Positions 9,463 to 36,878 of a stretch of DNA of 64,000 bases are shown piece by piece. Made by a program: the position numbers and the translations under genes. The stretch comes from Olsenella porci. Its GTDB lineage: Bacteria > Actinomycetota > Coriobacteriia > Coriobacteriales > Atopobiaceae. The stretch spans positions 1-64,000 of the forward strand of contig NZ_VUNC01000009.1 in NCBI RefSeq assembly GCF_009695875.1, written 5' to 3'. The notes beneath the pieces are model-generated. The model saw nothing but the letters and a program-made list of their open reading frames with translations. It searched no databases and was not told where the DNA came from. Numbering within the stretch: position 1 is the stretch's first letter; every line of letters starts with the position of its first letter.

Positions 9463-9953
9463 AGGGCGGAGGAGGTGGTCCCGACGGCTGGGGCAGTCTC
9501 CGCCGTCGGGGTTGGCAAGTCCGCATGCGCGGCATCCCAGAGCCGCCTGCCGTCCGCGGGGAGGCAGTCGGGCAGGTCGGCTGCAAACTCCTCGCTCCCC
9601 CACTCGCACGCCTGACTGTAGTACCAGCACTTCCAGTCGATCATCGCGCGGGTGCGCTCCAGCTCCTCGATTTGCTCGTCCACCCTGCGGCGCTGCTCGC
9701 GGAAGAGCTCCAGCCGATCGTCGTAGGTGCTGGGACCCTCCTGACACCAGTCCATGAAGCGCTTGATGTCTCGGATCTCGAGCCCCGAGCGCTTGAGGCA
9801 CTCGATCAAACGCAGCGCCTCGATCTGGTCGTCGCCAAAGCGTCGAGTACCCGACGTGCGCTCCAACCCAGGAAGGAGCCCCATCTTGTCGTAGTAGCGG
9901 ATGGTCGAAACCGGAAGGCCGAACATCCGAGAGACCTGGCCGATTGTGTACAT
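9459..9953 (-). CDS. MerR-family regulator divergent from the alcohol dehydrogenase
   Basis: A 164-residue regulator. The N-terminal MerR winged helix begins YTIGQVSRMFGLPVSTIRYY at residue 2. It is followed by the effector-side helix pair (KRSGLEIRDIKRFMDWC) and a dimerisation coiled coil about residues 80-115. The C-terminal part contains the motif WKCWYY, shared with the second MerR gene of this window (55287-55745, YKCWYY), so the two are paralogues. MerR proteins of this type usually control a neighbouring aldehyde or alcohol oxidoreductase in response to electrophiles. The palindrome at 9974-9999 lies just before its start and before the dehydrogenase gene, so it probably controls both. 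Confidence 0.88.
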   Translation of the reverse strand: MYTIGQVSRMFGLPVSTIRYYDKMGLLPGLERTSGTRRFGDDQIEALRLIECLKRSGLEIRDIKRFMDWCQEGPSTYDDRLELFREQRRRVDEQIEELERTRAMIDWKCWYYSQACEWGSEEFAADLPDCLPADGRRLWDAAHADLPTPTAETAPAVGTTSSAL

Positions 9954-9973
9954 CGCGTGCACCTCAAATTCGT

Positions 9974-9999
9974 ATCTAGACCTAAAGCTAGGTTGAGAT
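9974..9999. promoter_or_regulatory. Probable MerR operator in the divergent promoter
   Basis: A 26-bp interrupted palindrome: outer arms ATCT (9974-9977) and AGAT (9996-9999), inner arms ACCTA (9980-9984) and TAGGT (9989-9993), centred at 9986.5. It lies 21 bp before the MerR start and 43 bp before the dehydrogenase start. Palindromes between the -35 and -10 boxes are the norm for MerR regulators. Confidence 0.6.
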
Positions 10000-10041
10000 T
10001 CTACAACAGAGAAGAACGTACCTTCGACGAAAGGAAGCGCC

Positions 10042-11208
10042 ATGCTCGGAGACTTCACCTACCACAACCCCTGCCGCGTCCACTTTGGGCCCAACGCGCT
10101 CGACGAGCTCCCCAGCGAGCTCGCAGAGTACGGCCCCAAGGTCCTTCTCACCTATGGCGGCGGCTCGATCAAGAGAAACGGCGTCTATGACAAGGTCATC
10201 ACCGCGCTTGAGGCTGCCGGCAAGACCGTGTTCGAGGTTCCGGGCGTCATGTCCAACCCCACCGCAGACAAGCTGCGCGAGGGCGCGAAGGTCGCACGCG
10301 AGAACGACGTCGACCTGATCCTGGCAGTGGGCGGCGGCTCCACCATCGACTACGCCAAGGGTGTCTCTGTGTCCGCATGGACCGAGGGCGACCCCTGGGA
10401 GCACCTGTACCTGCACATGGAGGAGCCGACCGGCAAGGTCATCCCCGTGGGCGACGTGTTGACCATGAGCGGCACCGGGTCGGAGATGAACGCAGGCTCC
10501 GTGATCACCAACCACGAGGAGGGCCTCAAGATCGGCCACGTGTTTGGCCCCAATGTGATCCCGCGCTTTGCCATCGTGAATCCTGAGGTCACCTTCACCG
10601 TGCCCGACTACCAGATGCGCGCAGGCATCTACGACGCCTTCAACCACATCTGCGAGCAGTACTTCTCCGGGACCGATGACAACACCAGCGACTACATCGC
10701 CGAGGGCCTCATGCGCAGCCTGGTGCACGCAAGCCGCATCGCGGTTAAGGACCCCACCGACTACGAGGCGCGCTCCAACATCAGCTGGGTCTGCACCTGG
10801 GCGCTCAACACGCTCATCGCGTGCGGCAAGTCGACCGACTGGGAGGTCCACATGCTGGGCCAGGCCATCGGAGCGGTTACCGACGCCACGCACGGCATGA
10901 CCCTCTCCGCCGTGAGCCTGCCCTACTATCGCCTGGTCATGCCCTACGGAGTGGAGAAGTTCGCGCGCTTTGCCCGTGCGGTGTGGAACGTGGATGACTC
11001 CGGCAAGTCCGAGCGCGAGGTCGCCGAGGCGGGCCTGGAGGCAATGAGCGAGTGGATGGACCAGATTGGCGTGGTCAAGAGCGCCCGCGAGCTGGGACTG
11101 ACCGAGGAGAACATCCCCGATGCAGTGAAGGCGACCTTCATCCTGGACGGCGGCTACCACAAGCTGACGACCGAGGAGGTCGAGCAGATCTTCCACGAGA
11201 GCCTGTAA
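10042..11208 (+). CDS. Iron-dependent alcohol dehydrogenase (BdhA/YqhD type)
   Basis: A 388-residue group III alcohol dehydrogenase that reduces aldehydes to alcohols with NAD(P)H. The nucleotide-binding GGGS motif is present (AVGGGSTIDYAKG, residues about 95-107). The metal ligands fit the family pattern D-X3-H...H-X13-H: Asp near 197 and His near 201 (YDAFNHICEQ), His near 270 (WEVHMLGQA) and His near 284 (THGMTLS). An earlier GG-rich loop (TYGGGSIKRNG) indicates the BdhA/YqhD subgroup, which often prefers NADPH. The start follows CGAAAGGAAGCGCC. It is divergent from a MerR gene and ends in a strong terminator, so it is probably monocistronic and induced by an aldehyde or thiol-reactive signal. 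Confidence 0.93.
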   Translation: MLGDFTYHNPCRVHFGPNALDELPSELAEYGPKVLLTYGGGSIKRNGVYDKVITALEAAGKTVFEVPGVMSNPTADKLREGAKVARENDVDLILAVGGGSTIDYAKGVSVSAWTEGDPWEHLYLHMEEPTGKVIPVGDVLTMSGTGSEMNAGSVITNHEEGLKIGHVFGPNVIPRFAIVNPEVTFTVPDYQMRAGIYDAFNHICEQYFSGTDDNTSDYIAEGLMRSLVHASRIAVKDPTDYEARSNISWVCTWALNTLIACGKSTDWEVHMLGQAIGAVTDATHGMTLSAVSLPYYRLVMPYGVEKFARFARAVWNVDDSGKSEREVAEAGLEAMSEWMDQIGVVKSARELGLTEENIPDAVKATFILDGGYHKLTTEEVEQIFHESL

Positions 11209-11235
11209 AGCCGCGGCGCGCAGACGGCATGCGCT

Positions 11236-11281
11236 GGGCCGGGACGGTGGGTTGAGCCTTCCGTCCCGGCCCGCCTCTTTT
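11236..11281 (+). terminator. Rho-independent terminator of the alcohol dehydrogenase gene
   Basis: Perfect 12-bp arms GGGCCGGGACGG (11236-11247) and CCGTCCCGGCCC (11261-11272) are followed by a T-rich tail ending at 11281. Confidence 0.9.
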
Positions 11282-11380
11282 CGGGCTTTGCCGCGGACGC
11301 CGGAGCCGGGTTTTGCTTCCGAGGAATATCGACCTGTAGCTATCAGTCAGACAGCGGGCAATCATCGACGAGCGGGACCC

Positions 11381-11625
11381 TGCTTAGGAATTGCGAGTAT
11401 TGGCAATCGATGGGGTCCCACGGGGGCGTTCTGCTGAGGAAACGCGAGCTTTGGCAATGAGGAGCCCCCGATGACTGCCAATACTTGACTTTCCTCAGTA
11501 GGTAAGTGGTGCGCGGGGCCGTGCGGAGCTACCGGATTGCCACAACTCGACTTTCCTCAGCAGGTAAGGGGCGCACGGTGCCCTCACCGAGCTCCAGGAT
11601 TGCCACAACGCGCATTTTCTCAGCA
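11381..11625. repeat. Convergent array of 27-bp TGCTGAG repeats, site 1
   Basis: Five copies of a 27-bp repeat are present. Two point right (11381-11407, 11432-11458) and three point left (11474-11500, 11536-11562, 11599-11625). The consensus begins TGCTGAGRAAR and ends TTGTGGCAAT or TATTGGCAAT. Same-orientation spacings are 51, 62 and 63 bp, near whole helical turns. The copy at 11536 differs from the one at 21305 by a single base. The inner opposed pair (11432 and 11474) can form a hairpin. The array lies between the dehydrogenase terminator and the alaX gene and contains no gene. Confidence 0.85.
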
Positions 11626-20781: not shown

Positions 20782-21156
20782 ATGGACAAGGAACTGCTGG
20801 ACTTCGCATCGACCAAGGTGGACCAGATGCTCTCCGCGCCGTCAGCTTCGGAGGAGACCAAGCGGGCGGCCCAGGCGTGGAAGGATGCCATCGCCGCAGG
20901 CAAGGACGCAGATGCCGCGACCAACACGCTCCTCGACGCCATCAGCGAGCACCAGACCACTATCGACGACCTGATTGCCTTCGCCGGATCCGACACCGGC
21001 AGGCAGGTCTTTGGCGAGGAGGGCGCCGCCAAGATGCTGGCACACTCCCAGGCGCGCAAGGAGGCCGGTGCCAAGTTCTGCGACTGCGCCGCCTGCAAGC
21101 CCTGCCACGAGCTGCTGCACAAGTTTGGCCGCGAGGAGGCGGACGTCTACCTGTAG
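20782..21156 (+). CDS. Small helical Cys-rich protein of unknown function
   Basis: A 124-residue acidic, probably all-helical protein. The ATG follows AGAGGAAGGGAG. The C-terminus carries four cysteines in CDCAACKPCHELLHKFG. This includes a CXXCH sequence, but no signal peptide is present, so a c-type haem is unlikely and a metal or Fe-S site is more plausible. No family is recognised. It is followed by the inverted-repeat element at 21305-21467. Confidence 0.75.
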   Translation: MDKELLDFASTKVDQMLSAPSASEETKRAAQAWKDAIAAGKDADAATNTLLDAISEHQTTIDDLIAFAGSDTGRQVFGEEGAAKMLAHSQARKEAGAKFCDCAACKPCHELLHKFGREEADVYL

Positions 21157-21304
21157 GGAACGCCATGCAAGGCGCCACCGCCGGGTTTGGCATGGGGGAT
21201 ACCCAGCGAGGCCCATCTGCTGTCACTCGGCGGCATGGCGTCACCACTTGGTTAGGCGTTGGGAACATCTCAAAGCCCCGCTTCGGACAGCGAAGCGTCG
21301 AGGG

Positions 21305-21467
21305 TGCTGAGAAAAGTCGAGTTGTGGCAATTCGAGGGGGCTGTTCCGCTGAGGGAGATGGTGTTTTGGCAACGATTGAGGGCAGAAACTACCCCGTGGT
21401 CTGCCAATAGCTCGTCTTTCTCAGCGGAGTGCGCCTCTCAATTGCCACAACTCGACTTTTCTCAGCA
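21305..21467. repeat. Convergent array of 27-bp TGCTGAG repeats, site 2
   Basis: The outer copies (21305-21331 and 21441-21467) are perfect 27-bp inverted repeats of each other, beginning TGCTGAG and ending TTGTGGCAAT. Inner copies lie at 21347-21373 and 21400-21426. Same-orientation spacing is 42 and 41 bp. Immediate flanks CGAGG and CCTCG extend the outer symmetry with one unpaired base. The element sits between two convergent genes in the 403-bp gap 21157-21559, which holds no gene. Confidence 0.88.
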
Positions 21468-21559
21468 CCTCGTTATTCAGGGGCCCGTACGCAGTCACTG
21501 GCACCGACCCGCACCGCAGCAAACCGGGGCTCCCATCAACCGATTGGGCGAGACGCGCC

Positions 21560-36745: not shown

Positions 36746-36807
36746 TTGTACCCCCAACCAACAGCCAAGACGTGAAAGGCTGCTTACGCCGTTCAGAGCA
36801 AACGGAA

Positions 36808-36878
36808 AAGCAGCTGGCTGCCTGTTAGGGCCCTGTAGCTTTGCGTCACCGCCTTTCGGCGGCTTTGCCTTTATATTC
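36808..36878 (-). promoter_or_regulatory. Cyclic di-GMP-I (GEMM) riboswitch
   Basis: The minus strand carries GEMM aptamer landmarks in order: AAAGGCAAAGCCGCC, the GAAA tetraloop, GGCGGTGACGCAAAGC, then GGGCCCTAAC (receptor side) and AGGCAGCC. It lies about 65 bases upstream of the tip-adhesin ATG in the same orientation, so it should switch the pilus operon by c-di-GMP. I could not resolve the expression platform; GCAGCCAGCTGC followed by TTTT at its 3' edge may be part of it. Confidence 0.86.

Follow-up and report, generated by a model that had tools for sequence, protein, structure and literature searches.

What kind of element is the 163-bp palindrome that lies between two genes of the gut bacterium Olsenella porci, and does it have relatives and a partner protein elsewhere in the genome? 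The window, that is, the whole stretch of DNA analysed, comprises 64,000 nucleotides (contig NZ_VUNC01000009.1, positions 1 to 64,000). A first-pass annotation had reported there a perfect 27-bp outer inverted repeat enclosing an inner pair 42 and 41 bp inside, between convergent genes. The outer repeat is real and extends 3 bp further, to 30 bp (21303-21332/21440-21469); the inner offsets are exact, and the two inner copies are about 74% complementary. The neighbouring genes do converge, one encoding a 124-aa protein and ending at 21156, the other encoding a serpin on the minus strand. In 100 shuffles of the window, no match to the unit was found at up to 3 mismatches. It had also been remarked that at another place, site 1, the same units are not arranged as a single pair, and this is borne out by their order (Table 1). 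The palindrome is probably one "solo" member, lacking a gene, of a dispersed repeat family, the partner of which would be a dedicated nuclease-like protein.

Table 1. Positions of the arrays and their units in the window, and of the array-bracketed gene on contig C8 of the same genome
Feature	Position	Strand or order	Description
Site 2, whole solo array	21303..21469	++--	30-bp perfect terminal inverted repeat; steps 42/52/41 bp
Site 2, outer unit 1	21305..21332	+	TGCTGAGAAAAGTCGAGTTGTGGCAATT, 46.1 bits
Site 2, inner unit 2	21347..21374	+	degenerate, 21.4 bits
Site 2, inner unit 3	21399..21426	-	degenerate, 16.7 bits
Site 2, outer unit 4	21440..21467	-	46.1 bits; inverse orientation, identical to unit 1
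Site 1, whole array	11317..11625	+++---	unit of site 2; steps 64/51/41/62/63 bp
Site 1, unit 1	11317..11344	+	degenerate, 16.9 bits
Site 1, unit 2	11381..11408	+	
Site 1, unit 3	11432..11459	+	
Site 1, unit 4	11473..11500	-	
Site 1, unit 5	11535..11562	-	
Site 1, unit 6	11598..11625	-	
Bracketed gene	C8 451519-452556	-	346 aa, predicted PD-(D/E)XK (Vsr-like) type
Arrays bracketing the gene	C8:451186-451461 and C8:452840-453115		family unit

Where the first-pass annotation knew of two sites, the genome of O. porci (2.36 Mb in 15 contigs) contains 34 arrays. When up to 3 mismatches were allowed, a search with the outer unit returned 25 copies, and the reversed control 0. A weight matrix trained on the matched loci defined a 28-nt asymmetric unit, TGCTGAGRAAWnnCGAGTTGTGGCAATC, and its scan of the genome gave the 34 arrays, of 3-6 units each, the reversed matrix yielding no matches; with a calibrated sequence model about 135 units were counted over the whole genome at E<=1, nearly all inside these arrays. 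All of the arrays are intergenic save one that overlaps a weak 50-codon ORF; of the others, 13 lie between convergent, 15 between tandem and 5 between divergent genes, and a location between convergent genes is therefore no rule. No functional theme was found among the flanking genes, and almost no homologues (one pair only) are common to the array neighbours of O. porci and of Olsenella sp. An188; a regulon, or a function tied to the neighbouring genes, was rejected on these grounds. The arrays are unevenly placed along the chromosome, about nine of them falling within 65 kb (C8:389-453 kb); none or almost none lie on contigs C12 and C13 or on the initial 368-389 kb of contigs C1 and C8.

The arrays follow a single plan. 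In 34 of 34, plus-strand units precede minus-strand units, with 0 violations of this order; the number of units per half-array varies, and the halves are often unequal. Adjacent units are spaced near 41, 52, 62, 73, 83, 93, 104 or 146 bp only, and these spacings fit a 10.48-bp period (R=0.92, n=106), same-strand and opposed neighbours alike, the coherence dropping to 0.78 at 11 bp. B-form DNA has a helical repeat of about 10.5 bp, and A-form RNA one of about 11 bp; the spacings are multiples of the former and the units therefore lie on one face of the duplex. Conservation follows the units as well. Arrays C9:161037 and C9:163976 are 92% identical and their homology stops within 6 bp of the outer units, other related pairs being 73-90% alike; when columns are labelled as unit if either copy has one, related arrays differ at 4.2% of core unit columns, 15.6% of other unit columns and 22.3% of spacer columns (p=1.6e-18). 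By order, phase and conservation, each array consists of two opposed half-arrays of a 28-nt asymmetric unit on one face of the DNA.

The partner of the arrays is very probably, judging from sequence comparisons, the product of the PD-(D/E)XK/Vsr-like gene on C8, which is bracketed by two of them; its nearest homologue in An188 (C16:58561-59400) also stands beside an array. The gene family is present in 127 of 140 Atopobiaceae genomes, usually in several copies each, and at more than 40 homologue loci (Olsenella, Thermophilibacter and others) the gene is bracketed by arrays with a gene-specific unit. In a set of 30 homologue loci, most flanks contain strong inverted pairs (at least 20/24), compared with 0 of 118 control windows; nearly all loci carry one gene-specific unit on both sides, plus is followed by minus at 59 of 59 junctions, same-strand steps measure 31, 41, 52, 62, 73 and 125 bp, and the period is 10.46 bp (R=0.95, n=136). 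A set of 41 named loci (Olsenella, Thermophilibacter and uncultured Atopobiaceae), which has some genomes in common with the 30 and is thus not fully independent of them, gives 10.39 bp (R=0.94, n=172). The right array mirrors the left in many loci and is a direct copy of it in others, O. porci among them.

For the 41 named loci the unit was learned from the left flank alone. Within the same locus, the right flank had it at least twice in 30 of 41 cases versus 30 of 1681 mismatched flanks, and at least once in 34 versus 49 of 1681; its absence from the right flank in the other seven is partly due to seeds that were unrelated hairpins or to arrays on one side only. Among more distant homologues from other genera the flank prediction held in 10 of 24 cases versus 0 of 456. 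At the scale of whole genomes, the unit flanking the gene in G137 has 28 copies in that genome, 1 in five congeners and 0 with the reversed control; a unit common to the gene loci of G116, G123 and G138 has 12, 22 and 12 copies there and 0 in G137, An188 and G126. In these four genomes (G137, G116, G123 and G138) the gene-flank units predicted scattered arrays, and elsewhere their absence where the gene type is missing. Gene and array thus occur as a pair, as their co-occurrence in more than 40 loci and the predictions that held both demonstrate. The divergence of the unit is correlated with that of the protein (Mantel r=0.32, 6 of 2000 permutations), a correlation that shared descent alone could produce; since the gene is inherited at fixed loci, it could reflect long co-residence. 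The arrays at the gene flanks may serve only autoregulation.

Invariant SPxE, R-x-PD and (D/E)YxGxxH motifs are found in 23 homologues of the protein, and SPxE/PD/(D/E)YxGxxH is, as a sequence signature, the pattern of Vsr-type PD-(D/E)XK nucleases; the conserved acidic residues suggest an active nuclease. Eleven of the 23 weakly match the Pfam family MTES_1575, under the curated cut-off (best E 0.0067), a family to which a Vsr-like REase fold has been ascribed (PMC3710099). Above threshold, the protein family matches none of the models of Pfam, NCBIfam or PADLOC, the last representing known anti-phage defence; a PDB sequence search with the protein gave no match, and neither Y1_Tnp nor any other transposase family of Pfam matched it at E<=1. 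Searches of viral contigs, plasmids and phages gave no member of the family. The O. porci protein lacks the last 20-25 residues of its relatives and keeps the core.

None of 59 other genomes, drawn from across the family and the order, has the O. porci unit pattern, and a model search of 140 family genomes gave two copies of the site 1 region and a diverged version in another genus; searches with the exact unit pattern and with distant blastn yielded no direct copies from phages, plasmids, IMG/VR or a collection of 84,980 genomes. An188 (G003) has a unit of its own, GCTTARGAATCCGGGGTTRTGGCA, at 17 array loci among the matches listed, again ordered plus then minus, one of them being a partial -- array, and with junction spacings of 10.37-bp period (R=0.97, n=16). 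In the An188 arrays another motif was noticed, GGCGAGAAGAACC/GGTTCTTCTCGCC, which is seen repeatedly at the centre and on the flanks of arrays in this genus and may be another binding site. Array unit sequence turns over between species, and arrays are present or absent at a conserved junction: between prs and pth, neighbours kept in 31 congeners, the gap of An188 measures 437 bp and includes an array; in about half of the congeners it is 96-160 bp long and holds nothing but the terminator of prs and the beginning of pth; the array of G115 is of another unit type, and G110 seems to hold a further one. Of the presence or absence with target duplication by which a mobile element was to be recognised, the former is thus seen at this junction, but no consistent target duplication was found at 34 + 15 arrays (a slight 5-mer excess in O. 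porci, 4 vs 1.2). Gene loci that share a unit type are orthologous, their flanks being 83-95% identical, and therefore the gene stays at its inherited locus while arrays scatter. Further short elements, possibly another repeat family, occur in the prs-pth intervals of the congeners; they have long terminal inverted repeats, such as GTTTCTAGGTGTT...AACACCTAGAAAC and TTTTAGGCAGTTT...AAACTGCCTAAAA, and an internal GCAGGTA. In several congeners a short palindrome like TTAATTGGGGACAGTCCCCAATTAACAG directly follows prs.

Other explanations of the arrays have to be weighed. At the RNA level each could form a long transcript hairpin, acting as a bidirectional terminator, an mRNA stabiliser or a small RNA, and the RNA folding of site 2, which the first-pass annotation proposed to predict, is indeed very stable (z = -11.9; further folds, -7.1 and -5.2). 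However, site 2 matches no Rfam family, the period of 10.4-10.5 bp loses coherence at the A-form value, the half-arrays are often unequal, and facing units at the junction are as alike within an array as between arrays (p=0.64; only for the outer pair p=0.03), their differences having no G-U bias. As the core columns are conserved and facing units are not more alike, what is maintained is the unit and not the pairing of the arms, which points to protein sites on duplex DNA, with the 28-nt unit as a putative protein-binding site, and not to RNA; the stable fold is a by-product of the inverted units. A hairpin was accordingly discarded on the 10.5-bp period and the lack of arm covariation and G-U bias, and a terminator because none is predicted at site 2 and arrays also lie between tandem and divergent genes; an RNA-level role is highly improbable. 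The arrays might instead be fixed regulatory or chromosome-architecture sites, with the nuclease-like protein as a site-specific DNA-binding or bridging factor that would organise the chromosome or regulate genes close by, their spread being slow and incidental. This would suit the helical phasing and the purifying selection on units, the scarcity of arrays on C12, C13 and the first parts of C1 and C8, and the inheritance of the gene at fixed loci. It is nevertheless rather unlikely, given that arrays do not keep their positions (about half of the congeners have an empty prs-pth gap, and G115 and apparently G110 hold other insertion types there), that the flanking genes have neither a theme nor, between O. 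porci and An188, more than a trace of homology, that the unit changes between species, and that the acidic residues suggest an active nuclease.

The first-pass annotation had taken the palindrome for a miniature element with terminal and subterminal repeats, and part of this stands: homology breaks off sharply at TGCTGAG...CTCAGCA, and some congeners have an array between conserved genes where others have none. Mu, Tn7 and IS21-type elements have several direct transposase sites per end, opposed ends and TG...CA termini, and the arrays, with several direct units per half, opposed halves and outer units that begin with TG and end with CA, could be ordinary MITEs of a lost DDE transposon of that type; like such MITEs they are short, gene-less, intergenic and dispersed, with terminal inverted repeats. 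Neither of the two integrase-core (rve) proteins of O. porci has units nearby, nor do the IstB-like matches have flanking units; among these rve and IstB matches no IS or DDE element with the ends of the arrays was found, as had been envisaged, and no matching transposase, and an IS21 or DDE parent was rejected on that basis. Each gene flank is a complete palindromic array. Because target duplications are not consistently found, no rve or IstB parent is seen, the internal unit number varies and the arrays are tied to a nuclease-like gene outside the window, they are not ordinary MITEs, and a DDE origin, which would leave the one-to-one pairing with that gene in many genomes unexplained, is quite improbable.

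The pairing of arrays with a dedicated nuclease-like protein allows a mechanism to be proposed, of which DNA binding, cleavage and mobilisation are the parts we infer. The protein would bind its unit, several copies assembling side by side on the phased units along one DNA face; the opposed half-arrays might then join as a synaptic complex, and a cut by the nuclease at or near the array would lead to its being copied or moved into intergenic sites, while the gene would remain fixed at one inherited locus and the arrays scatter, as in REPIN-RAYT. The PD-(D/E)XK-type nuclease would then represent a new class of repeat-mobilising enzyme that polymerises on phased opposed half-arrays and copies or moves them, a REPIN-RAYT analogue derived from an unrelated enzyme and spread through the Atopobiaceae; we put this forward tentatively, with slightly less than an even prospect of its being right in full.

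REP elements are defined as short palindromes with a GT(A/G)G head, and two inverted REPs in every case flank the transposase gene (PMC2817692); the RAYT gene stays single-copy while REPINs spread (PMC3116915). The system described here is similar in having a dedicated nuclease gene at a fixed inherited locus that the repeat flanks on either side, numerous inverted copies without a gene dispersed over intergenic sites, and a gene-specific repeat sequence with fast turnover between species. It differs in the enzyme, for which a PD-(D/E)XK/Vsr-like type is predicted and no HUH/Y1 (RAYT) domain match was obtained, in the unit, which is 24-28 nt, asymmetric, not self-palindromic and devoid of a GTAG head, and in the helically phased +..+ -..- arrays of 3-12 units; having an unrelated enzyme and a phased array as its repeat, the system does not belong to the REPIN-RAYT family. 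With Vsr-like REases (MTES_1575, DUF2726 and DUF559-type) the protein shares the SPxE...PD...(D/E)YxGxxH pattern and the weak profile matches, but the profile scores lie under the curated cut-offs and no tie of these enzymes to repeat arrays was found in open-licence PMC papers. Searches of that literature likewise gave no description of the array and nuclease-like-gene system, though one may exist elsewhere. A repeat served by a gene of its own is an already familiar principle; what is apparently undescribed is the pairing of a Vsr-like enzyme type with a phased repeat architecture. If correct, this would be a second, independent way for bacteria to keep small intergenic repeat populations, and a new type of DNA-processing enzyme. 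Since unit and protein diverge together over more than 40 paired loci, a DNA-recognition code may be readable from natural variation; the helical phasing offers a clean test of multi-subunit assembly on DNA, and a multi-copy gene family that matches no curated model gains a candidate role.

Site 1 has relatives of its own. Two genomes of other genera, G085 and G108, which otherwise do not carry the repeat and which lack the last two units of site 1, match the stretch 9931-11519 of the window at 96-97% identity; this stretch takes in a gene (10042-11208) and the first four units of the array, and the match points to recent transfer, or contamination. The last two units resemble a tandem repeat of 62/63 bp that has diverged, equivalent to six helical turns. 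Elsewhere in the window, a c-di-GMP-I-GGC riboswitch aptamer was detected at 36805-36878 on the minus strand, just over the Rfam gathering score.
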